Of a DNA stretch of 64,000 bases, positions 3,458-64,000 are shown in pieces. Each line of letters starts with the position of its first letter. Position 1 is the first letter of the stretch. The translations under genes and the position numbers were made by a program. A model generated the notes under the pieces. That model was not told the DNA's origin. It was given only the letters and a program-made list of their open reading frames with translations, and searched no databases. This DNA is from Myxococcota bacterium (GTDB taxonomy: Bacteria > Myxococcota_A > Polyangia > HGW-17): the NCBI GenBank assembly GCA_018821305.1, contig JAHJMN010000146.1, positions 21,250-85,249 of the forward strand, given 5' to 3'.

Positions 3458-3610
3458 GTTACTGTCCTGAAATACGACATTTCGAAGCTAGCTACGAAAT
3501 TCAACACAGGACATTAAGAATGAAGACTTTGAAATTATTGTAGTGTTATGAATAGCATGTTTTCCTAAACATGCTCAATTTTTACAAAAATTGAATTTCA
3601 GAACACGAAC
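3458..3610 (+). repeat. 153-bp MITE-like structured repeat, family B (copy B1)
   Basis: Ungapped 153-bp alignment with 61191-61343 (+) and 16531-16683 (-); terminal inverted repeats GTTACTGTCCTGAAAT / ATTTCAGAACACGAAC; internal hairpin AGCATGTTT-TCCT-AAACATGCT. Confidence 0.85.
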
Positions 3611-8449: not shown

Positions 8450-10723
8450 TTGTTTGTCAGTATGAGAAACTATAACCGTACTGCTACTGATACCGTTAGA
8501 AACAATCAACTTCCGCCGCCGCCACCGCCACCCCCACCATCCTACTCGAGGAAAACATCACCTCCATCTTCTTCATCCGCGGGAAGTTTTTTTACTGCAA
8601 TCATTGTTATTGCAGCCTTTTCGATGCTTGTTTACACACTGTTTAACAAGTTTGCAGGTACATCGGAGAATGGAAGTAAAAATGGGAAAAAATCAATAGT
8701 TGCGGGGAATAAAGATGATAAAGGAATAAAAAAATCAGATAGTAAAATAAAAAATCTTTCCGTGTCAATTGCTCCTTCCCTTATTAAGGAAGATGAAAAT
8801 ATACCGCCTGAACAATTAGTATATGTTGCTCAAAAAGGGAAACTCAAGGCTCAGCGAATTGAGGATGCTGTTAAATTTGGATATTCAATCATTGATTTAA
8901 GTGATGATTTTGCACCCTTTATTTTTACGGATGGACCTGATACGCCCAACAAATATCGAAAAACTTATTTAAACCTAGCAAATGATCGAACGGATGAAGA
9001 AGGAAAACCGCTGAAGGCAGGGGACCATAATTATGCTGAATTATATGGAATTATTCCATCTTTCGGTGTTATTGCTAGACGTTTTGTCGAGGATGACTCA
9101 AAAGAGTGCTTTAAAAAATTAAATTATAAATATTTTAATCAGGCAAATTATCACGTGACCTATGTTTCCCGCAGAGATCTGCGCAAAGAAATGGAAACAC
9201 TTAAAAAGGAAGCGGCAAAGTCAAAGAAGAAAAACAGTTATGCTTCCCGACGTCATCGACTTATCACTGCTAAATATTATATGGTTACCGAAGCTCAAAA
9301 ACGACTTAAATGCGAAGGGCTTTTGAGCTCATATTCTCCGGGTTATATTAATTATTCAACTATTGAAGCCATAAAGGATTTTGAGCACAAACACATGATT
9401 TTCGGATGGGGAATTCTTTCCGGCGACACAAGAAAAGGTTTTGGCCGAACGCCTCTGGAAAACAATTACAGATCATTACGCCGCGCAGTGCGGGAACGAA
9501 TAGTTCACAATCTTGGCTTAATTGAAGACGGAAGTGTTAATAAGGTAAAGGGATTGTCCGATGAGTTCAAGGATCGGGAAGGAAAAAGCCAGCGAATTCC
9601 AAATCTTGTGAAAACATACACGGATATCTTTATGAAGGAAATGGGACTTGAAACACCGGAAAAAGCGCTAAAGTTTTTTAAGGATTTAAAAGGCCGACCC
9701 TTTGAACGAATGAAAGTTGCTGTTAAATTTCCACCTCTTCCAGATTATTATGATAAGTTCAACTTCAGTGTTGTAATTGATCGTGGCGATGTTTATTACG
9801 ACGCTCCATTTGATGCCTCGGGAAAGAATCGCTTTCAGCCCGTTTCCCGCCGACCAAGATTGATACTCTACACTACCTGGAAGGGCCAAAAAGTCCCTCT
9901 GGTTCGCTGGGGAACAACCATCGGGGGCTGGCGAAGTGAATTTAAAGATGGCAAAGAATATTACGCCTACAAAGAGAGCGATGTTGGCCCAAGAATCTGG
10001 AAGGACATTTTTTCTGCACCTGTTTGGATTCCGCCGAAAAGTTCACCTCCATCAGGACTTCTCCGTTCACATCGAAATAAAGATGGCCGCTGGATTACCC
10101 GTGTGAACCGGGAAGAAATAGGCCCCAGTTATTTGAGTGCTTACGGACTTGTAGCTGCTCACCATATAAGAAATCGCTCTGACAGTGGAAAATCCATCTG
10201 GTTTGATAATGGAATCCGAACTCATGGCAGTATGGATTATATGAGTATTATGCGACGCCACAGCCATGGTTGTCACAGACTTCACAATCATCTGGCCGTG
10301 CGATTGTTTTCCTTTATACTTATGCATACGGACCATAAGCGGAAGGGACAGACTAAATTGATCTATACGAGATCGTTCAGTCATAAAAATAAAGATTACA
10401 AAATTAAGTTGGATACACGGGGGTATCAGTTCAGTTTGACAAAACCCATTGAAGTTGAAGTTATTCGGGGCAGGGTTTTAGGGAAATTAAAACAGCCTTT
10501 CAAAGGATATCTGCCAAAACCTGGTGTTGAGTACGAAAAAGATGATCCAAACTTATCCGGAGAAGTTGACAGCACAGATAAATCCGGAGCGGGCCAGGGA
10601 GCTGCAGAGGCTTCTGTTGAGACAAAAATTAAGGAAAAGGAAGAAAAAAGATCCGATGAAAAACTCCTAAAAAGTAACCGGAAACTTCCACCACCACCAA
10701 TGGGTGTCAAACCCCTCGACTAG
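8450..10723 (+). CDS. L,D-transpeptidase (YkuD-type) with N-terminal polyproline tract and TM anchor
   Basis: catalytic motif HGSMDYMSIMRRHSHGCHRLHN (SHGCxR); N-terminal PPPPPPPPP; single TM FFTAIIVIAAFSMLVYTLF. Confidence 0.85.
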   Translation: MFVSMRNYNRTATDTVRNNQLPPPPPPPPPSYSRKTSPPSSSSAGSFFTAIIVIAAFSMLVYTLFNKFAGTSENGSKNGKKSIVAGNKDDKGIKKSDSKIKNLSVSIAPSLIKEDENIPPEQLVYVAQKGKLKAQRIEDAVKFGYSIIDLSDDFAPFIFTDGPDTPNKYRKTYLNLANDRTDEEGKPLKAGDHNYAELYGIIPSFGVIARRFVEDDSKECFKKLNYKYFNQANYHVTYVSRRDLRKEMETLKKEAAKSKKKNSYASRRHRLITAKYYMVTEAQKRLKCEGLLSSYSPGYINYSTIEAIKDFEHKHMIFGWGILSGDTRKGFGRTPLENNYRSLRRAVRERIVHNLGLIEDGSVNKVKGLSDEFKDREGKSQRIPNLVKTYTDIFMKEMGLETPEKALKFFKDLKGRPFERMKVAVKFPPLPDYYDKFNFSVVIDRGDVYYDAPFDASGKNRFQPVSRRPRLILYTTWKGQKVPLVRWGTTIGGWRSEFKDGKEYYAYKESDVGPRIWKDIFSAPVWIPPKSSPPSGLLRSHRNKDGRWITRVNREEIGPSYLSAYGLVAAHHIRNRSDSGKSIWFDNGIRTHGSMDYMSIMRRHSHGCHRLHNHLAVRLFSFILMHTDHKRKGQTKLIYTRSFSHKNKDYKIKLDTRGYQFSLTKPIEVEVIRGRVLGKLKQPFKGYLPKPGVEYEKDDPNLSGEVDSTDKSGAGQGAAEASVETKIKEKEEKRSDEKLLKSNRKLPPPPMGVKPLD

Positions 10724-10911
10724 ACCCAATGCTGTTCGGTTAGTACTTTTTTGAAGTAAATAACCAATAAATACAACGTCATATAATAATTAAATGAAAA
10801 CAGTAAGTCAGGAAAATAGAAATTATTAGCTGGAACAGGATAATAAGGGGCTTTCCTCTAACGTATTTCTTTTAAAAAGCCACAATTATATTACTTCAGG
10901 ACACGAACAAT
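10724..10911. repeat. mosaic intergenic repeat, family C/D (contains the empty-site sequence of the nested insertion at 61191)
   Basis: CCCAATGCTGTTCGGTTAGT (also at 19083) and GAAGTAAATAACCAATAAATACAACGTCATATAATAATTA (also flanks 61191-61343); ends ...TTCAGGACACGAAC. Confidence 0.7.
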
Positions 10912-16530: not shown

Positions 16531-16683
16531 GATCGTGTCCTGAATTTCAATTTTTATCAAAATTGAGCATGTTTACGAAATCATGCTATTCAGAACACTG
16601 TAATAATTACAAAGTCTTCATTCTTAATGTCCTGTGTTAAATTAAGTCGTTAACTTGAAAAAATAGTATTACAGGACATTAAC
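16531..16683 (-). repeat. 153-bp MITE-like structured repeat, family B (copy B3, inverted)
   Basis: reverse complement aligns without gaps to 3458-3610 and 61191-61343; flanked by TAACTAAATC / TAACTAGATC (9/10 direct repeat). Confidence 0.85.
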
Positions 16684-16871: not shown

Positions 16872-19079
16872 TTGGATTTTAAAGAATCGATAGATATATT
16901 CTCAGGGTATTTGATTATGCTTATAGAACCGGAAAAAAGACGTATACGCCTCAGACAAGCTCCTCCTTTTCCCATGGGAGCATCTCATCACTACGGCGGA
17001 ACTCGATTTGTTGTGTTTTCCAGACATGCCACGGCAGTATCCCTTTTATTTTTTGACAACGCCAATGATGTGAATCCATCAAAAGAATGGAAATTGAGTC
17101 CCGATCTTCATCGTTTCGGTGATATCTGGTCCTGTTTTATTGAAGGGTCAAGAGAGGGGCAAATTTACGCATGGAAAATGGATGGGGATGAAGTTATTGA
17201 TGGAATAAAAAGTTTTACCCCCGAAGCTTTCCTTATTGATCCTTATACAAAAGCAATATGCGGACCATATGAATGGCGGGATGGACTTGGTTCCAGGGAT
17301 ATTCCCACTGCACCAAAATCAGTAGTAACATCACCAGTTTACAACTGGAAACGCACAATTTCTCCTAAAATACCAATGGAAAAGACCGTAATCTATGAAG
17401 TGCACTTGCGAGGATATTCAGCACACCCTTCGGCACAAGTGGATTTCCCCGGGACATTTGCAGGGTTCATTGAAAAAATAAAATGGATAAAAGAACTTGG
17501 CATAACAACCGTTGAACTTCTTCCTATTCAGGCTTTTGCTGAAAATGAAGTCATCAATCGAAATCCATTCACTGGGGAAAGGTTGAAAAACTACTGGGGA
17601 TATTCCACCATGGCCTTTATGGCAGTTCATCCACCGTATGGAGCTTTGCCCGGAGAAGAGAAAGAAGAATTCAGTCAATTCGTAAGGACTCTTCATGACA
17701 ACGGACTTGAAGTTATTTTAGATATTGTTTTCAACCATACAGCAGAAGGCAACCAGACGGGGCCCGTTTTAAGTTTTCGCGGCCTTGATAACTCCATCTA
17801 CTACATGATGGATACGGAAAATAAATGTTATCTGAACTACTCCGGCTGCGGAAATACACTTAACTGCAATCATCCCGTGGTGAGAGATTTCATTATGGAC
17901 GTTTTGCGTTACTGGGTGGTGGAAATGGGAGTTGACGGATTTCGATTCGATCTGGCAAGTATACTTGGCAGGGATCAGGATGGAAATCTTCTGGATAATC
18001 CTCCCCTTGTGGAAAGGATTGCAGAAGATCCGATACTGCGAAATGTAAAAATAATAGCAGAAGCATGGGATGCGGGCGGCGCGTATCAGGTGGGAAGTTT
18101 CCCAGGTACACGCTGGGCGGAGTGGAATGGTCGTTTCCGTGATGATATTCGAGCTTTCTGGCTCACGGAAGGTGGAAGTATTGCGGATTTTGCCACAAGA
18201 CTTGCGGGAAGCGAAGATCTTTACGGCTCATCGGGTAGAACTCCTCTGCATAGCATTAATTTTGTAGCGAGTCACGATGGATTTTCCCTGAGAGATCTTG
18301 TTTCTTATGATTATAAACACAATGAAATAAATGGGGAAAATAACCGTGATGGTGACAATCATAACCTGAGTGATAATCATGGTATTGAAGGCTATACACA
18401 TGATCATGAAATCAGGAATCTGCGGCTCCGTCAGATGAAAAACCTACTTCTGACCCTTTTCGTCTCTCAGGGAGTTCCAATGATTTACTCCGGAGACGAA
18501 TATGGCCATACCAAACTTGGAAACAACAACACCTACTGTCAGGATAACCCTGTTACATGGTTTGACTGGCGGCTCACAGGTAATTCCCTTGTTGATGAAT
18601 TTACAGTGAGCGGATTTGCAGATCCCCTTGATGTGGATATTGAAGAAGGTCGTCACATCACAGATTTTATCAGAAACCTCATAAGTTTTCGTAATAACCA
18701 TCCACATTTACGCCGCAAAACATTTTTTTCAGGCTCTATAGTAAAAAATTCACCATCTCCATTTTCTGGTATGCGAGATATCATGTGGATAAATGAAAAA
18801 ATGGAAGAAATCGACTGGAGCTACCCGAGAAAGTTTATTGGTGTCATTCTAGGGCCTGTCATTGAGAATGATTGTGTTAATCTTCCGGTTCAAATGTACT
18901 TTAATGCCACGGATGAAGATATCGTTGCGGTGATAAGAAGTATTCCCGGTTACCGCTGGAAAATCATGTTTGATACCTCAGATATGAGGATTTCCGACAA
19001 CTCAGATCGCATACTCGAAGATACCATAATTACAGTAAAATCCAGAAGTTCCGTAGTAGCTTCGCTGGTTAAAGTATGA
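16872..19079 (+). CDS. glgX: glycogen debranching enzyme (isoamylase, GH13)
   Basis: VIYEVHLRGYSAHPS, WGYSTMAFMAVHPPYG, VDGFRFDLASILGRD, INFVASHDGFSLRDLVSY; true start may be ATG at 16917. Confidence 0.95.
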   Translation: MDFKESIDIFSGYLIMLIEPEKRRIRLRQAPPFPMGASHHYGGTRFVVFSRHATAVSLLFFDNANDVNPSKEWKLSPDLHRFGDIWSCFIEGSREGQIYAWKMDGDEVIDGIKSFTPEAFLIDPYTKAICGPYEWRDGLGSRDIPTAPKSVVTSPVYNWKRTISPKIPMEKTVIYEVHLRGYSAHPSAQVDFPGTFAGFIEKIKWIKELGITTVELLPIQAFAENEVINRNPFTGERLKNYWGYSTMAFMAVHPPYGALPGEEKEEFSQFVRTLHDNGLEVILDIVFNHTAEGNQTGPVLSFRGLDNSIYYMMDTENKCYLNYSGCGNTLNCNHPVVRDFIMDVLRYWVVEMGVDGFRFDLASILGRDQDGNLLDNPPLVERIAEDPILRNVKIIAEAWDAGGAYQVGSFPGTRWAEWNGRFRDDIRAFWLTEGGSIADFATRLAGSEDLYGSSGRTPLHSINFVASHDGFSLRDLVSYDYKHNEINGENNRDGDNHNLSDNHGIEGYTHDHEIRNLRLRQMKNLLLTLFVSQGVPMIYSGDEYGHTKLGNNNTYCQDNPVTWFDWRLTGNSLVDEFTVSGFADPLDVDIEEGRHITDFIRNLISFRNNHPHLRRKTFFSGSIVKNSPSPFSGMRDIMWINEKMEEIDWSYPRKFIGVILGPVIENDCVNLPVQMYFNATDEDIVAVIRSIPGYRWKIMFDTSDMRISDNSDRILEDTIITVKSRSSVVASLVKV

Positions 19080-19414
19080 CTATACCCAATGCTGGTCGGT
19101 TAGTGAACTTCCGAGTAAATTAGTCAATAAATACAATCTTGTAAAACAATTACAGGCAGACAGGAATTCAGGAAAACAGGGGTCAGGAGCAAGGATCGAA
19201 ATTTAAAAAGTGAATATTTGCTTTCAACCTTTGTAATTTTCCATTGATATTGAATGGTTAACCGCTGATCCTGATCCTGTTTGCCTGACTACCCGAGTCC
19301 CTGTTAAAAAATTACAGGTAGACAGTGAATCAGTAGCAGGAACAGGACAATCAACTCTTTCCTGAAGATTTTCTTTAGAATAACTCACAATCGTATTACT
19401 CAGGAAGCGGTCTA
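19080..19414. repeat. mosaic intergenic repeat, family C/D
   Basis: CCCAATGCTGGTCGGTTAG shared with 10726; GACCGAAAT/TCGAAATTTAAAAAGTGAATATTT and ...TCCTGAAG..TTTCTTTAGAATAA..CAATCGTATTACTCAGGAAGCGGTCTA shared with 60911-61147. Confidence 0.75.
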
Positions 19415-37149: not shown

Positions 37150-37561
37150 TTAATCCGCGGATCTCCGGTGCCCTGATTTCTTAACAGGGGAGTCAGGAAG
37201 TCAGGAAAACAGGATCAGGCTCAGGTCATAAACATTCAATATCAAAGCATAATTACAAATGGCAGGATGAAAACAAGTACTTTTCCCGTTTCGATCCTTT
37301 TATTCCGAGAGCGGTCTAGACCGCTTCCTGATTAATACGATTGTGACTCGTTTAAAAAAAATGCTTCAGGAAAGACCCCTGTTTTCCTGTTCCTGCTACT
37401 GATTTCCTGGTTACCTGAAATATTTTAACAGGGACTCAGGAAGTCAGGAAAACAGCGACAGGCTCAGGTCATAAACATCCAATATCAATGTAAAATTACA
37501 AAGACTGGAAGAATATATTCACTGTTCTACTCTCGATCCTTTTATTCCGAGAGCGGTCTAG
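37150..37561. repeat. mosaic intergenic repeat, family D; two direct units (about 37180-37320 and 37430-37561) with an inverted module between
   Basis: TTAACAGGG..TCAGGAAGTCAGGAAAACAG..CAGGCTCAGGTCATAAACATNCAATATCAA...CGATCCTTTTATTCCGAGAGCGGTCTAG appears twice; perfect palindrome GCGGTCTAGACCGC at 37311-37324. Confidence 0.8.
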
Positions 37562-37582
37562 CAATATTTACAGCACCTTGCG

Positions 37583-37643
37583 GTTACTGTCTTGAATAAT
37601 AAACTGACGAAAAATTTGATTTCTTGTATTTCAGGACAGTAAC
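37583..37643. repeat. 61-bp hairpin repeat, family E (copy E1)
   Basis: GTTACTGTCTTGA...TTTCAGGACAGTAAC; same length and interior GACGAAAAATTTGA as 41560-41620; preceded by CAGCACCTTGCG. Confidence 0.8.
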
Positions 37644-41433: not shown

Positions 41434-41484
41434 TTCTTATCCTTCCTGACCCTTTGAACAGGTAGGTCGATATGAATTCGTTCG

Positions 41485-41545
41485 TGTCCGGAAATTCGCT
41501 TCGCGAAGAATTTTATTAAAAATTCTATCCGGCCACTATAATAAA
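41485..41545. repeat. mosaic intergenic repeat, family A (copy A4), fused to family E copy E2
   Basis: GTTCGTGTCCGGAAATTCGCTTCGCGAAGAATTTTATTAAAAATTCTATCCGGCCACTA. Confidence 0.75.
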
Positions 41546-41559
41546 TTCAACACCTTGCG

Positions 41560-41620
41560 GTTACTGTCCTGAGCAAAAATCGGGCGAAAAATTTGAATTT
41601 CGGTATTTCAGGACAGTAAC
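41560..41620. repeat. 61-bp hairpin repeat, family E (copy E2)
   Basis: perfect 13-bp arms GTTACTGTCCTGA / TCAGGACAGTAAC; preceded by CAACACCTTGCG. Confidence 0.8.
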
Positions 41621-41961
41621 GAATTCAAGTTACTGACGGTGTGTAATCACTTTTTATGCCATTCTTTTGCTATTGTATTTTGTATACGGTTTCAATTTGC
41701 AATTAAGACGAGTTTTAATATAAATTCTGTTGTAATAGTTGTATAAAAACAATATCTTGAAGTTTATGATCTTAAAATGATCTTTATGGAAAATTAAAAA
41801 TCTTTATTTTTAAATGGTTGCCAAACAATACTTCTTTTTTAAAAGTTCCCATGAACTTACATCGATATTTAGACAATACCGTCCGCATATGGTCTTTTTT
41901 TTTTCAAGTTTTAATGATACATTCCCACCGTATTTTTATTGTTTTAACAGGAGTTGAAAAT

Positions 41962-52882: not shown

Positions 52883-54109
52883 TTACTGGTGAGTTATTAC
52901 AAACTCAACCCTTCGGTTCCGGTCTCTACCCTTACTGGTTTCATTTTTATCAATGGGTACGTCCATTCCATAACCCACATCTTTCAATCTACTGGGATCA
53001 ATACCTTTTTTAATGAGATACTGACGAACTGCTCTGGCTCTTTTTCGGGACAGTTTAAGATTATACCACTTGGGTCCCGTATTATCCGTGTGTCCTTCAA
53101 TTCTTAAAGTCATAGTGTTTCTTGCTTTAAGAACCTGTGCGATTTCATTGAGAAGCGGAAAACTCTTTTTCTTGATAACAGCTTTATCATCATCGAAGAA
53201 AACTTTTTGTTTAAGTTCGATCTTCTTGACCGTAACTTTTATAAGTTTGAGCTCATCCGGACAACCGTCATCATCTTTATAACCATTTTTAGTTTCCGGT
53301 TCATTGGGGCATTTGTCTTTAACATCCGGAATACCGTCTTTGTCGTTATCGGGATCGGGACAGCCGTCATCATCCTCAAAGCCATCCATGTCTTCTTTTG
53401 TATCTTTGAAATTGTTTGCTTTATCTTTGTCAACTCCAGGACATTTATCTACTTTATCCGCAAGACCATCGCCATCATTATCTATATCAGGACAACCGTC
53501 ATCATCTTCAAATCCATCTTTGTCTTCTTTTGTATCCTTGAAGTTATTTGCTTTGTCTTTGTCTGTTCCAGGACATTTATCGCTGAGTTTACATACTTTT
53601 TCGTATTTTTTATCCTGACCCTTTTCTTTAACCCATGGATCACAAATACCATCACCATCGTTATCGGGATCGGGACAACCGTCTTCATCTTCAAATCCGT
53701 CTTTATCTTCAGGATCATTCGGACATTTGTCTTTATCATCATAAATGCCATCGCCATCAGTATCGAGAATTTTAACTTCAAGTTTGATGGGATCTTTTTT
53801 GGGCGTGGTATCAACTACTACCTTTTTAGCACAGCGCTCAGGTGGGCTCTTCCTGATGGCTTCTCTGGCGGCATTTCCTGAAATATCAAGAAGTTTTACT
53901 GCCTCATGATATTTCCCCTGACTCATTTCATCCTGACTGAATTCGTAATGAGTTTCCGCTTGAGCCAGTTCTTTGGGGGCGCATTTTTTTGCTCCGTTTT
54001 CCCGCGCTGTTTCAATAAGCTTTTTAATAACACTGGAGCGGCCTTCCAGTTCCACTCCGGCACAGGAAGCAAGAAATAAAAGTATAGAAAGGATGGAGAG
54101 TTTTTTCAT
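52883..54109 (-). CDS. OmpA-family protein with thrombospondin type-3 calcium-binding repeats
   Basis: repeated DTDGDGIYDDKDKCPNDPEDKDGFEDEDGCPDPDNDGDG; OmpA C-terminal LRIEGHTDNTGPKWYNLKLSRKRARAVRQYLIKKGI. Confidence 0.93.
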   Translation of the reverse strand: MKKLSILSILLFLASCAGVELEGRSSVIKKLIETARENGAKKCAPKELAQAETHYEFSQDEMSQGKYHEAVKLLDISGNAAREAIRKSPPERCAKKVVVDTTPKKDPIKLEVKILDTDGDGIYDDKDKCPNDPEDKDGFEDEDGCPDPDNDGDGICDPWVKEKGQDKKYEKVCKLSDKCPGTDKDKANNFKDTKEDKDGFEDDDGCPDIDNDGDGLADKVDKCPGVDKDKANNFKDTKEDMDGFEDDDGCPDPDNDKDGIPDVKDKCPNEPETKNGYKDDDGCPDELKLIKVTVKKIELKQKVFFDDDKAVIKKKSFPLLNEIAQVLKARNTMTLRIEGHTDNTGPKWYNLKLSRKRARAVRQYLIKKGIDPSRLKDVGYGMDVPIDKNETSKGRDRNRRVEFVITHQ

Positions 54110-54110
54110 A

Positions 54111-54521
54111 TCAGTTGCCTCCATCTTTCTGTATTATAATTACTGGTTTTTTTTCTGTATTTTCTATTTTCTTGTCTTCTGTTTTTTTTGCATCCGGTTC
54201 ATTTTTGTCGCCGGAATCAACTTCAACTTTTTTCCTGTTTATTCCCTGCAGTTGAGCTCTCTTACTCATTTCAGTGCAGCTCTGTCCATAGCGATTAGCA
54301 TCCTGATAGTCTGCGTAACCGGCTTTATGACGAGCCCTGTGTAAATAGTAATACGCTGACCAGTATTCATAAGGACTATATTTTTCTCCCTGTGCTTCTT
54401 TTGCAGCGGAGAACTCTCTGTTTGCTGTAATGCCAACTTTACTCATATATTCAACTGGTCCACATGAGGAAAATACAACAAGAAGCGAAGACAAAACTAT
54501 AAGTTTTTTTATAATATGCAT
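54111..54521 (-). CDS. DUF4398-like lipoprotein
   Basis: lipobox VVFSSCGP; SAAKEAQGEKYSPYEYWSAYYYLHRARHKAGYADYQDANRYG. Confidence 0.75.
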   Translation of the reverse strand: MHIIKKLIVLSSLLVVFSSCGPVEYMSKVGITANREFSAAKEAQGEKYSPYEYWSAYYYLHRARHKAGYADYQDANRYGQSCTEMSKRAQLQGINRKKVEVDSGDKNEPDAKKTEDKKIENTEKKPVIIIQKDGGN

Positions 54522-57979: not shown

Positions 57980-59155
57980 GTGGAGTTAAGCGTGGCAAAG
58001 AAACATGTAATGACAAAACAAGAACTTAGACAGCCGGATGTAATTTCCGGTTACTTTTTACGTATGTGGGAAAACATCCGCAATAACTGGAAACCAATAG
58101 TTTATTCTGGTATCGGCATCGGAGTCATTACCATATTTATTTTTATTTATATATGGTATGCTCACAACAGGGATGAAAAGGGCTCCAGAGTCCTTGTAAA
58201 GAGTCTGGATATGATGCTAAGCCCAGTGGATGAGGCTGCTGCAGACGAAAAGCTTGTTCCCGGTCAGAGAAAAGCTTTAAAGTCCTATAGAGAGTTGTTT
58301 GAAAAATCCCACCAGTTATTCACTAAGAATCTTGGCAGTTGTGGTAGATCCAAATCCTGTAACTTTATCTATGCACTTCGGGGCCGCTGTTCTTTTGAAC
58401 TTGCTTTTCTTGATACGGCAAATCGTGACAAACACCTTAAAAGTGCCATTTCCGATTTAAATACAGCCTGGAATAAAATTACTGGTTTTGCATGTGCCTC
58501 ATCTCTGGAAACACTTGCGATGGCCAAGGAATCTCTTGGGGATTTCAATGGCGCTCTTGCAGCATATCGTGAATTAGCAACGGCAGCGGGTGATGCTTAC
58601 ACGGGCCAGGCTCTTATCCATCAGGCTCGAATTCTTGAACTACAAGGAAAGAAAGATGAAGCTGTAAAGCTTTATCAGGACATTACTAAGACAAAGAGTA
58701 CTGGAATTTTAGCTGAACAAGAAAAAGCCCTTGAGAACCAGATGGCTTATATTAAAGCTTTCTCTCAGATTTCCAGTGGTAACGAGCAACAGATTCAAGC
58801 TATTTTCAATGCGATGAGACGGGCTCAGATGAATCTTGCCCAATTACGTGCTACCGCTTCTATTTCAGATCCTGGTCATTATGCCAAACAGAGACTTGCA
58901 TTTCTGGATCTTGGCTTGAATATTGAATCAAAAGATAACAAAGCACCCACTCCGGCTCCAGCCCCAGCTCCGGTTGCAATGCCAGCTCCGGCCCCGGCTC
59001 CAGTCCCGGCTCCAGTCCCGGCTCCAGCTCCAGCCCCAGCTCCGGTTGCAATGCCTGCGCCAGTTATGGCTGCAATGCCTGCTCCCGTTATGGCTGCAAT
59101 GCCCGCGCCAGTTATGGCTGCAATGCCCGCGCCAGTTATGAACCCCATGAACTGA
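57980..59155 (+). CDS. TM-anchored tetratricopeptide protein with Ala/Pro/Met repeat tail
   Basis: TM IVYSGIGIGVITIFIFIYIWYAH; TPR-like helices; tail APAPVPAPVPAPAPAPAPVAMPAPVMAAMPAPVMAAMPAPVM. Confidence 0.8.
   Translation: MELSVAKKHVMTKQELRQPDVISGYFLRMWENIRNNWKPIVYSGIGIGVITIFIFIYIWYAHNRDEKGSRVLVKSLDMMLSPVDEAAADEKLVPGQRKALKSYRELFEKSHQLFTKNLGSCGRSKSCNFIYALRGRCSFELAFLDTANRDKHLKSAISDLNTAWNKITGFACASSLETLAMAKESLGDFNGALAAYRELATAAGDAYTGQALIHQARILELQGKKDEAVKLYQDITKTKSTGILAEQEKALENQMAYIKAFSQISSGNEQQIQAIFNAMRRAQMNLAQLRATASISDPGHYAKQRLAFLDLGLNIESKDNKAPTPAPAPAPVAMPAPAPAPVPAPVPAPAPAPAPVAMPAPVMAAMPAPVMAAMPAPVMAAMPAPVMNPMN
59045..59140 (+). repeat. 24-bp tandem repeat x4 in coding sequence (AMPAPVMA)
   Basis: four consecutive units of G(TT/CT)GCAATGCC(T/C)GC(G/T)CC(A/C)GTTATG. 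Confidence 0.85.
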
Positions 59156-59167
59156 TAAGTGTGAATT

Positions 59168-60292
59168 ATGAAGTTTTTCTTTTTCTTTCTGCTTACAATA
59201 CTGACAGGGTGCATATCTCCTTCTCAGAATCGTATTAATTCAGGCGAAGGACCATCATCAAGTGTTCTTACAATAAGATGGGAAAAGAAAATCATTTCTG
59301 CCGTAAGATTTTCAAATATTCCTGAGCAATTTTCAACTCCAAGATTCAGTTCTGATGGTAGTCGTATTTTCATCGGTGCCTCTGATGGGTTAATGAGATG
59401 TATTTCGATTAACAAAAATTTGATTTGGAAAACTAAACTTTTCAGTCCAATTCACTCCAGAGCACTCCTTCTTGAAGATAAAGATGCTCTCATTATTGGT
59501 ACTATATCTGGAGAACTCTATAGGCTTAGTATAAAAACTGGAAAAATAAAGTGGAAGTTCAAAGGTTTTGGCAGTTTTTTAGGTGACACTATATATAAAA
59601 ATGGTGTTGTTTATGCTGTTACTGCTAAAAATATGTTATATGCCGTCAGTCTTGATGATGGAAAACTTCACTGGTCACGGAGACATGAAACTCTCGGTGG
59701 ATTTACGGTTCGAGGACACTCGTCACCAGCTATTTCCGGGAAAAATCTGATTTACGGTTTAAGTGACGGAAGATATCTGAATGTTGATATTCAAAACCGT
59801 GGACAGATAATCTGGTCAGCCTCACTGGAAAAGCTTGAAGATGAAAATTACATTGATGCTGATGCGAAACCAGTAATTGATGGAAATATTGTGTATGTAT
59901 CCACTTATCGTCAGGGGATAACTGCTCTGGACCTTAAGACAGGCTCGCCACTTTGGCGATTCAGAGCGTATGGTGTTACTTTTATTAAAAAAATGGAAGA
60001 TCGCCTGTACTTTGTTTCACCAACTTCTGGTATTCACTGTATTTCTACAACTGGAAGGCTGATATGGCGGCAGTATGTTGATTTAGGTACCCCTGGTGAG
60101 ATTCTCATTAGAGGTAGACGTATGCTGATTCCTTTTGATAAAGTTGGTATCATTTCTATTGATCCTCTGACAGGATTCTTTCTACAGCGTTTCGACAGTG
60201 GAAATGGCGTCAGTGGAAACCTTGAACAATTTTCAAAAGGCGTTTCATTCCTTTCAAATTCCGGTTCTGTTTATCTCATGGATCTTAAATGA
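59168..60292 (+). CDS. PQQ-like beta-propeller lipoprotein (BamB-like fold)
   Basis: lipobox LTGCIS; repeats LIIGTISGELYRLSIKTGKIKWKFKGFG, LYAVSLDDGKLHWSRRHE, ALDLKTGSPLWRFRAYG. Confidence 0.85.
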   Translation: MKFFFFFLLTILTGCISPSQNRINSGEGPSSSVLTIRWEKKIISAVRFSNIPEQFSTPRFSSDGSRIFIGASDGLMRCISINKNLIWKTKLFSPIHSRALLLEDKDALIIGTISGELYRLSIKTGKIKWKFKGFGSFLGDTIYKNGVVYAVTAKNMLYAVSLDDGKLHWSRRHETLGGFTVRGHSSPAISGKNLIYGLSDGRYLNVDIQNRGQIIWSASLEKLEDENYIDADAKPVIDGNIVYVSTYRQGITALDLKTGSPLWRFRAYGVTFIKKMEDRLYFVSPTSGIHCISTTGRLIWRQYVDLGTPGEILIRGRRMLIPFDKVGIISIDPLTGFFLQRFDSGNGVSGNLEQFSKGVSFLSNSGSVYLMDLK

Positions 60293-60912
60293 AATCCTTC
60301 CTGTGTCTGTCATTGGTTCTTCTTTTTGCATGTAAATCAGAAAAAACTGAAGTCTTTCGCAATGATCTTGACGTTATTTCTCGTATGAAAAAACGCAAAA
60401 TGCTTAAATGTGCTAAAAAAACAGTGTGGTACATTGATAATGATGGAGATGGATACGGCGACGACAAGAAAAGTCAGGAAGCCTGTTCCCAGCCGGATGG
60501 ATATGTTGCTACCGGTGGAGATTGCGATGATTCTGATGAACGCGTACACCCGAAACAGACTGAATATTTTTCTATTCCGCGTAAAGATGGTTCCTTTGAC
60601 TTTGATTGTGATGGAAAACAAACTCCAAGGCTCACTGTGAGAGCCTATTGTGAAGTACATGCAAATAAAAAGGGATGCAACCATTCCAGTGGATGGGATA
60701 TAAAAGCCTCTCAAAAAATACCGGACTGTGGTGTCCCGGAAAACTGGGCATGGAATGAATGTAGAACTGAATTGCTGGATGAAAAAGCAACTACCGATGC
60801 GACTGCTCAAGCCAAAACTCCGTCATCTCCCATTGTAAAACCCCCTTCAAAAGCTGTGCATCAGTGCTGGTCTGGAAAACTTCAGTGGAAAAAAAGACAA
60901 CTTTGTCGCTAG
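60289..60912 (+). CDS. lipoprotein with MopE-like putative metal-binding motif
   Basis: WYIDNDGDGYGDDKKSQEACSQPDGYVATGGDCDDSDERVHPKQTEY; ATGA overlap with the upstream gene. Confidence 0.85.
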   Translation: MKSFLCLSLVLLFACKSEKTEVFRNDLDVISRMKKRKMLKCAKKTVWYIDNDGDGYGDDKKSQEACSQPDGYVATGGDCDDSDERVHPKQTEYFSIPRKDGSFDFDCDGKQTPRLTVRAYCEVHANKKGCNHSSGWDIKASQKIPDCGVPENWAWNECRTELLDEKATTDATAQAKTPSSPIVKPPSKAVHQCWSGKLQWKKRQLCR

Positions 60913-61502
60913 ACCGCTTCATGAGTAAAAGGACCGAAATCTAAAAAGTGAATATTTACGGCCAGTCTTTGTAATTATATATTGATATTAGATGTTTATG
61001 ACCTAAACCTGTTACCTGTTTGCCTGACTTGAGTTCCTGTTTAAGATTTTAGGTAACCAGAAAATCAGTTGCAGTAACAGGACAATCAGGCTCATTCCTG
61101 AAGCATTTCTTTAGAATAATTTTCAATCGTATAACTCAGGAAGCGGAATAGAAACTATACTAATCAGTTAGTGAATGTTTGAAGTAAATAGTTCGTGTCC
61201 TGTAATACCAAATTTTCAAGTTTACACCAAATTTGTACACAGGACATTAAGAATGAAGACCTTGAAATTATTATAGTGTTCTGAATAGTATGTTTTCCTA
61301 AACATGCTCAATTTTGATAAAAATTGAATTTCAGGACACGAACTAAATAATCAATAAATACAACGTCATATAATAATTACAGATACACAGGAAATCAGGA
61401 AACAGGGGCAGGTTCAGGTCATAACCATTAAACATCAATGTAAATTTAGAAAGGATGGAAGCAGAAATGCTCGTTCGATTCTTTTAAACAGGACGCAGTC
61501 TA
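60910..61502. repeat. composite mosaic repeat (family C/D) carrying a nested family B element
   Basis: left terminus TAGACCGCTTC..., right terminus ...GACGCAGTCTA; internal modules inverted relative to each other; family B copy at 61191-61343. Confidence 0.75.
61191..61343 (+). mobile_element. 153-bp MITE-like element, family B (copy B2), nested in family C/D repeat with TAAATA direct repeats
   Basis: 12-bp perfect terminal inverted repeats GTTCGTGTCCTG / CAGGACACGAAC; TAAATA at 61185-61190 and 61344-61349; apparent empty site GAAGTAAATAACCAATAAATACAACG at 10753. Confidence 0.75.
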
Positions 61503-61516
61503 AAATATGTGGGACT

Positions 61517-63232
61517 TTAGATATTATTGGAAATACCAGTGTAGAAGCAGGGAGTATATTTTTCTGGCGGAAGTTTTGCGGCTTCTTCAGGTTTAACTTT
61601 TCGGTCAAGTTTGAATGAAAGAGCACGGCGAAGTTCAGGTCTTATTTCAAGTTTGTTGTTGCGAACAAGTTTACGACACATATATTTAATTGCTTTATCA
61701 TAAGCTTTGATAGAGCGCGCCGTCATCTTGTTTTTCTGCTCTTTTTCCATTGCTTCAAAATCTGTTTTTGAAGGGAGTTGTTTTTCTTCAAGAATAACTA
61801 TTCTGTAGCCCTTGGAATTGCCTTGTTTTTCCGTAAGCACTTTTGGCAGTACTGTTCCTTTTTTATCAAGATTCCAAATTTCTCTGGCTGTTTCTCTAGT
61901 AATTCTCGGTGGATTACCCTTGAGAGGGCTAATGGGACCTTCAGTCATAAGTTCAGGAAGATCTTTAATATCAGTAGGTTTTTTGCCTTTTTTAAGTTCG
62001 TCCAAAACTCGACTGGCTGTTTCTGATGCAAGTTTATCAGCCTTTGTATTTATAATGAGTTGATTAGCTGCCCGTTTAAGAGCCTCGTCCGGTGATGCTT
62101 TGCCACCTTTTTCTTGCTCAACGAAGACAAAAAGTGCACCGTCTTTAACAAAGATCGGGCCTTCAATTGCTCCGACTTTACCTTTAAAAATGGTGCTTTT
62201 TACTTCTTTTTCAAGGGAAGAAGAAACCTCTTCAACCCAACCCATAAGTTTGTAATCAACTTTGTCAGCCCCGATATCAGTGACCGCTTGAGCCATATTC
62301 TCGCCCGTAAGTTTTGCTTTCATGTCCTTGAGACCTTTGATTTTATCAGCAAACTCCGGAAGTGCCTTTTCGAGAGCATCCAGACTCTGGTCTTTTTGAT
62401 CCTTCACTTTGGCATAGAAATCAGCGTTACGAACGAGCAAAGTACGAACTTTGCGCATAAGAGGCATGTCGCTGTATTTTTTGTTGTTTTTCTTCAGTTC
62501 TTCTTCGGCACTTTTTTTGCCTTCAGGAGATTTCAAAAATGCAGCGATTTCTTCGTCGCCAACCATAATGCCATTCTTGAAATTATCCGGTGAGAAGATT
62601 GCTGTTTTATAAAGCATTCCAATGTTTTCGGTCTGGTAGGTAATCCAGTTTTCGTTACTGAGATTGCCGTGCCCAAAAAGGAATGTATATTTGTATGTCA
62701 TGGCTGATAGTTCTTCAACCTGTTGATCTAAAAAGTGATTTACATCATAAAAGCCCTGGATTCTTCTTACCCAATTGTGAAACCACTGGTAGTTGAAATT
62801 TGCAGGTTTTTTTGTTTTCGGATCGATTGGGAACCCTCCCCAATAACTCAGAGGGTACTCCTGACCGAAAATAATAACTCTGTTATTCATTATAAGATCT
62901 TCAGCATCTCTTCGGGTAAAACGAATACCATTTTTATCTGCTAACTTGGCAAGAAGTTTTCTTTCCAGAATTTTATCCAGAGCAAAACGATTCAGAGTAA
63001 CAGAATAAGTAGTCTTTCGCTCGTCCCGGAGCATCCATCCAGTAAAATGGAAACTGTAATTCCAGTCCTGGGTAGAAATATTTTGTCCGTCAATACTTCC
63101 GTATTTATCGCTGTCACCGCAGGAAAGCTTATTGGACGCTGGTCCGAAACTGATAACGAAGGTTAAAATAATTGCTCCCAGTATAAGATAAATGACTATG
63201 GACTGGGATTTAGTACGAAGAATATCAAGCAT
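61517..63232 (-). CDS. PpiD/SurA-like peptidyl-prolyl isomerase-type foldase
   Basis: MLDILRTKSQSIVIYLILGAIILTFVISFGP TM anchor; SurA_N-like region; start moved to ATG at 63232. Confidence 0.8.
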   Translation of the reverse strand: MLDILRTKSQSIVIYLILGAIILTFVISFGPASNKLSCGDSDKYGSIDGQNISTQDWNYSFHFTGWMLRDERKTTYSVTLNRFALDKILERKLLAKLADKNGIRFTRRDAEDLIMNNRVIIFGQEYPLSYWGGFPIDPKTKKPANFNYQWFHNWVRRIQGFYDVNHFLDQQVEELSAMTYKYTFLFGHGNLSNENWITYQTENIGMLYKTAIFSPDNFKNGIMVGDEEIAAFLKSPEGKKSAEEELKKNNKKYSDMPLMRKVRTLLVRNADFYAKVKDQKDQSLDALEKALPEFADKIKGLKDMKAKLTGENMAQAVTDIGADKVDYKLMGWVEEVSSSLEKEVKSTIFKGKVGAIEGPIFVKDGALFVFVEQEKGGKASPDEALKRAANQLIINTKADKLASETASRVLDELKKGKKPTDIKDLPELMTEGPISPLKGNPPRITRETAREIWNLDKKGTVLPKVLTEKQGNSKGYRIVILEEKQLPSKTDFEAMEKEQKNKMTARSIKAYDKAIKYMCRKLVRNNKLEIRPELRRALSFKLDRKVKPEEAAKLPPEKYTPCFYTGISNNI

Positions 63233-63462
63233 ATGAGTCCTCCAAAAAACTATACAGATACACCCTCCGGGCGTACGAGCGCAAAATATAATGAAAACGG
63301 AACATTTAATCAACCAGTTAGTGTCCGGAAAGAAAGAAATTTTAAAATAAACTGTCAAAGGACTGAATTTAATTAAGATGTGCTATGAAAAAAATTAAAT
63401 TTATAAAGAAATTTCCGTTTGACTTGCAGAACTGGTTCAGCAATGATTAAATCCAATAAGGA

Positions 63463-63845: not shown

Positions 63846-63881
63846 TTTCAGGACATTAACTAACTAGTTCGTGTCCTGAAA
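63846..63881. repeat. outward-facing pair of repeat termini forming an inverted repeat
   Basis: TTTCAGGACA-TTAACTAACTAGTTCG-TGTCCTGAAA, 10-bp perfect arms, directly after a stop codon. Confidence 0.75.
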
Positions 63882-64000
63882 TTAAGTTAGCGTAAATAAA
63901 AGGAAAAAAGTAAAAAAAATAGAGGGGTTTTCAACTTTTTTGATCGACAAAATACACAGAATCATGTATTATATCGTTGAAATTATTAAAGAAAGGAGAA

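Follow-up and report, generated by a model that had tools for sequence, protein, structure and literature searches.

Among ISNCY-family insertion sequences (ISs), the systems closest to the one described here are the ISRm17 group of Sinorhizobium meliloti and the ISDol1 group. No description of the mechanism of ISNCY-family transposition was found in the literature, and full-text searches, whose partial coverage makes this weak evidence, turned up no MITE that had been tied to an ISNCY element. By method, the closest published parallel is a 187-nt MITE of Microcystis aeruginosa, which was assigned to the ISL3 family by its matching ends and repeat length (PMC11448079). A parallel of another kind is the IS1202 family, whose insertions share one orientation and lie a set distance away from dif sites (PMC10132070).

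The window analyzed here, a 64,000-nucleotide stretch of a Myxococcota genome, contains a 153-bp insert between TAAATA direct repeats, with the layout GAAG-TAAATA-[GTTCGTGTCCTG...CAGGACACGAAC]-TAAATA-ATCAATAAATACAACGTCATATAATAATTA, exactly as an initial annotation of this DNA had read it (Table 1). We consider it very probable that the insert is a MITE, a non-autonomous DNA transposon, and that a resident DDE transposase of probable ISNCY family inserts such MITEs and its own IS at TANNTA with a 6-bp stagger. Like the Microcystis element, this one is a short, gene-less stem-loop that matches an IS in its ends and repeat length and is mostly intergenic, but the former has an ISL3 parent, 8-bp repeats and ∼31 to 33 copies, whereas here the parent would be ISNCY, the repeats are of 6 bp, copies are far more numerous and arrays are frequent (PMC11448079). 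The candidate parent resembles the ISRm17 group in the family that its transposase best matches, in its length (∼1.66 to 1.68 kb), in its GT-starting ends with a CCGTCC/TGTCC core and in its 6- to 7-bp TA..TA duplications. It differs in a protein identity of only 27 to 30%, in the abundant MITEs that accompany it, and in a duplication of 6 bp rather than the 7 bp of most relatives examined. The element is of an ordinary kind, in an IS family for which we found no published MITE. New are the identity of its likely parent, which begins in the window, statistics on duplications across the genome, a distribution apparently confined to one species and a head-to-tail bias in the arrays. Such a relationship would link ISNCY-family ISs to a very abundant MITE family. 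With its many copies that have clean duplications and empty sites, the genome is also a useful natural data set on how targets are chosen, how arrays form and how copies spread between genes.

Table 1. Mobile-element features of the window and its host repeats (window coordinates).
Feature	Position	Strand	Remarks
MITE, family B153, 153 bp	61191..61343	+	At least 41 near-full copies in own genome
6-bp target duplication TAAATA, left copy	61185..61190		
6-bp target duplication TAAATA, right copy	61344..61349		
Left terminal inverted repeat GTTCGTGTCCTG	61191..61202	+	Other B153 copies usually GTTAATGTCCTG
Right terminal inverted repeat (CAGGACACGAAC)	61332..61343	-	
Empty site: host-repeat paralogue without insert	10718..10815	+	GAAGTAAATAACCAATAAATACAACG at 10753
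Host-repeat family members	60908-61152, 61344-61452, 10718-10819, 19078-19414, 37188-37561		
Second B153 copy	3458..3610	+	86% to consensus; without intact duplication
Third B153 copy	16531..16683	-	91% to consensus; orphan end adjoins low-coordinate side
A142-family copy	41480..41620	-	Exact duplication GAATTC (41474-41479, 41621-41626)
A142-family fragment, left module	37558..37643	-	
Probable ISNCY-family IS (likely parent), left 134 bp	63867..64000	+	Continues on C216 (L152:79-1623); 78-base identity with C216 start; eight left ends in genome
TAACTA hexamer left of this IS copy	63861..63866		
Orphan element end (CAGGACATTAAC), across hexamer from IS	63849..63860	-	Interior unrecognizable

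The 153-bp element lies between convergent open reading frames (ORFs; 60289-60912 on the plus strand and 61517-63358 on the minus strand), within a member of an unrelated high-copy repeat family that has uninterrupted paralogues at 10753 and elsewhere. When both flanks of the element were fused through a single TAAATA, the junction aligned without a break to 12 stretches of a 1.44-Mb sample of the genome, spread over nine contigs, at 76 to 84% identity. The paralogue at 10753 was among them, so that the empty site originally proposed there holds: it carries no insert, and the alignment runs straight through. The element boundaries, the duplicated hexamer and the empty paralogous sites can all be read directly from these comparisons. 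The host repeat forms a separate high-copy intergenic family, found on many contigs and recognizable by AAGCGGTCTA, CAGGAAATCAGGAA and similar motifs. Further off in the window, the ORFs at 57980-59155 and 52883-54124 bear, respectively, a tandemly repeated Ala/Pro-rich tail (12-bp units) and DxDxDG calcium-type repeats.

Both MITE ends carry the terminal inverted repeat GTTnnTGTCCTG, with 10 to 12 of 12 bases matching. Allowing at most one mismatch, the 12-mer end occurs eight times in the window against 0.14 expected, and exact matches number 318 in the 5.22-Mb genome against 2 for a reversed control. The perfect 12-bp repeat initially described is true of this copy but atypical, as most copies differ between their ends: the usual left end is GTTAATGTCCTG and the usual right end GTTCGTGTCCTG, and the copy at this locus is exceptional in having GTTCG at both.

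Family counts were made on fetched contigs amounting to 1.44 Mb of the genome. These hold 212 non-overlapping matches that cover 1.5% of the DNA, and the 92 full-length copies fall into two sister families of 142 bp (A142) and 153 bp (B153), both too short for any transposase gene. A142 has the left end GTTACTGTCCTG, a right end as in B153 and a different interior; a chimera of the two families lies at C63:44089-44240. A search of the whole genome gave at least 41 near-full B153 copies, at 93 to 100% identity, with partial copies in addition. Genome-wide, the related copies of both families run to several hundred. Copies are strongly intergenic, with both flanks inside an ORF in only 3 of 88, in a sample of which ORFs of at least 120 amino acids, crudely called, cover 87%. 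In 58 relatives, one congener among them, searches detected no instance of the end motif or of the 142-bp family, so that among the genomes compared the expansion seems confined to this species.

Of the 88 full-length copies whose flanks could be read, the hexamers on the two sides are identical in 42 and differ by one base in another 20; re-pairing flanks between copies gave 4.2% identical and 22.8% one-off pairs. Exact repeats of 3, 4, 5, 7, 8 and 9 bp were seen in 2, 2, 1, 1, 0 and 0 of the 88 copies. With the 42 exact hexamers set in the orientation of their elements, the favored bases by position are T (39), A (39), A or T (33), T (31), T (41) and A (38), a target consensus of TAWTTA within TANNTA. 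A scan of end pairs that made no use of the family consensus showed that ends with exact 6-bp flanks are almost all 141 to 142 or 153 bp apart or belong to tandem arrays of such elements, with 1, 0, 1 and 0 matches for flanks of 4, 5, 7 and 8 bp. The initial annotation had read the locus as transposition with target duplication by a non-autonomous element, and together with the empty paralogous sites these counts support that interpretation, which was right in kind. It had also named two findings that would speak against it, a general lack of 6-bp duplications among the copies and flanks that belong to a longer invariant repeat. The first runs counter to the exact and one-off counts above, and for the second we found that both hexamer and host DNA vary from copy to copy. 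In about 30% of copies, not even 5 of the 6 flank bases agree, which decay or recombination might explain.

The absence of a transposase nearby, as first remarked, is true of the sequenced window. The candidate parent IS, however, has its left end 2.5 kb away at 63867, and the gene is missing because the contig breaks inside that IS. Another contig, C216, opens with exactly the 78 bases on which the window ends. Joined over this overlap, the IS is 1679 bp long, from GTTCGTGTCCTGAAATTAAG in the window to GGCTATTTCAGGACAGTAAC at C216 position 1623; it is a join of two contigs, and both flanks of one IS copy never lie on one contig. The left end was found on eight contigs and the right end on four, nearly all at contig ends, a pattern expected when a fragmented assembly collapses a multi-copy IS. 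A MITE may thus look like an orphan, its transposase seemingly "missing," because the assembly breaks off inside the parent element.

The only DDE_Tnp_1 gene in the genome is on C216, the contig that starts inside the IS, and it is here, in the 1679-bp element, that the search suggested at the outset for a transposase with matching ends found its object. The gene encodes an intact 450-amino-acid DDE transposase with a match to Pfam DDE_Tnp_1. Its best NCBIfam match is the ISNCY model NF033593 (294 bits, against a curated cutoff of 325; E value, 1.2e-87; 416 residues). In an alignment with eight relatives, D150, D355 and E406 are invariant in all nine sequences, and we take them to be the DDE catalytic triad. 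Distant ISNCY elements were compared from Sinorhizobium and Marinobacter plasmids (four copies) and from one class-mate genome. Their ends, such as GTGCCCGTCC, GTTTCCGTCC or GTTCCCGTCC, start with GT and contain CCGTCC or CCATCC, and their duplications (TAGACTA, TAGCCTA, TAGGCTA, TAGCTA and TACCTA) follow a TA..TA rule over 6 to 7 bp; in its ISNCY-type ends and TA..TA target duplication the resident IS is like these named relatives. Across 318 genomes of the class, including this one, only distant transposase relatives were present in five others, at about 30% identity, and a transposase scan of public genomes returned no relative. In a scan for metK, no hit exceeded 66% identity.

The IS shares its ends and its targets with the MITEs. 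Over 17 bp its left end is identical to the right end of B153 and its right end to the left end of A142, and its left flanks (TAACTA, TATTTA, TACTTA and TAGTTA) obey the same TANNTA rule. From these ends and from the duplications we infer that the MITEs are probably moved in trans by the IS transposase, which would recognize GTTnnTGTCCTG ends on the IS and the MITEs alike. Insertion would proceed by 6-bp staggered cuts at TANNTA, a chemistry suggested by the duplications, and repair of the stagger would leave the flanking 6-bp repeats. Because some MITE copies are 99% identical and the IS left ends are 97 to 100% alike, the sequences suggest that this system was recently active.

Beyond the shared ends, the MITE interiors have no convincing similarity to the resident IS, and we rejected a derivation of the interiors from it. 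The original MITE source could for this reason have been another IS relative, now lost. In its stronger form, this explanation has a different ISNCY relative, lost or unassembled, both making and spreading the MITEs while the resident IS merely shares their ends; diverged IS pieces of 87 to 92% identity on contigs C116 and C154 do indicate some history of the IS family here. We regard the stronger form as unlikely, since the ends are identical over 17 bp on both sides, the target consensus is common to IS and MITEs, and near-identical copies of both exist.

An unusual feature is the arrays in which many copies lie. In 29 of the 88 full copies another element end stands exactly 6 bp away across one shared hexamer, which in most cases recurs on the outer sides. 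Abutting ends are arranged right to left, that is, head to tail, in 31 of 34 cases (31:3), a count in which a joint between two full copies enters twice, so that independent joints number roughly half. Joints with a spacer of 6 number 29 in the sample, compared with 0 to 5 for each other spacer from 0 to 15 except for 13 at spacer 14. IS left ends abut an element end in five of eight cases, four of them with a left-type and one with a right-type end. Arrays that mix 142- and 153-bp elements are not simple duplications of one copy, and the hexamer is only weakly asymmetric in solo copies, and thus gives no obvious cue for their orientation. The head-to-tail bias would follow from oriented targeting of existing ends or from end-to-end joint intermediates. 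It is conceivable, but we would put it at somewhat below even chances, that the ISNCY transposase targets existing ends in an oriented manner, placing a new copy on an old end's hexamer with right facing left across that single shared hexamer and so building mixed-family arrays. If true, such self-targeting would suggest that transposition passes through an end-to-end intermediate resembling a circle or joint. The IS1202 family is alike in being DDE type, in being discussed with ISNCY and in inserting with a uniform orientation and spacing relative to a palindrome (dif or pdif), in contrast to this genome, where the neighboring palindrome half is the end of another element copy and not dif (PMC10132070).

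The same joints could be read as 30-bp sites of a tyrosine recombinase, dif- or attachment-like, in which two 12-bp arms enclose a 6-bp center where crossover occurs and the elements are cassettes. Such sites would account for the strong enrichment of 6-bp-spacer joints, which almost always set a right-type against a left-type arm, and for the existence of orphan arms. They would also require target arms before insertion, but in 59 of the 88 insertions no arm lies beyond the hexamer, and none is present in the empty site at 10753. Moreover, the hexamer varies between loci yet agrees across each element, and none of the four tyrosine recombinase genes found lies in an element with these ends, whereas the DDE gene does. 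We therefore rejected this explanation as highly improbable.

That the elements are REP/BIME-like palindromes, structured RNAs or terminators spread without DDE transposition is barely credible: they are intergenic, numerous and fold far better than shuffled sequences (z, -5.8), but clean 6-bp duplications and empty sites refute this as a full explanation, and the window has no Rfam match. To our knowledge, target duplications and empty sites would not be expected of REP elements that tyrosine transposases mobilize. A secondary role of the MITEs, e.g., in transcription termination, may exist. A LexA-like operator, suggested by a GAAC-N6-GTTC core, was set aside because it would not account for the duplications.

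Some observations concern single loci. A 2154-bp composite on C145, delimited by a MITE at each end and with matching TACTTA flanks, probably arose by chance; its interior carries an aminotransferase-like ORF. Orphan ends of 12 to 17 bp stand across the hexamer from an element or IS at window positions 63849-63860, at C3:60424 and at C3:87244, and may be truncated relics. Two IS right ends, L165 (C154) and L166 (C193), are followed by TAAC runs of up to about six units, which may reflect slippage or repeated targeting at TAACTA.
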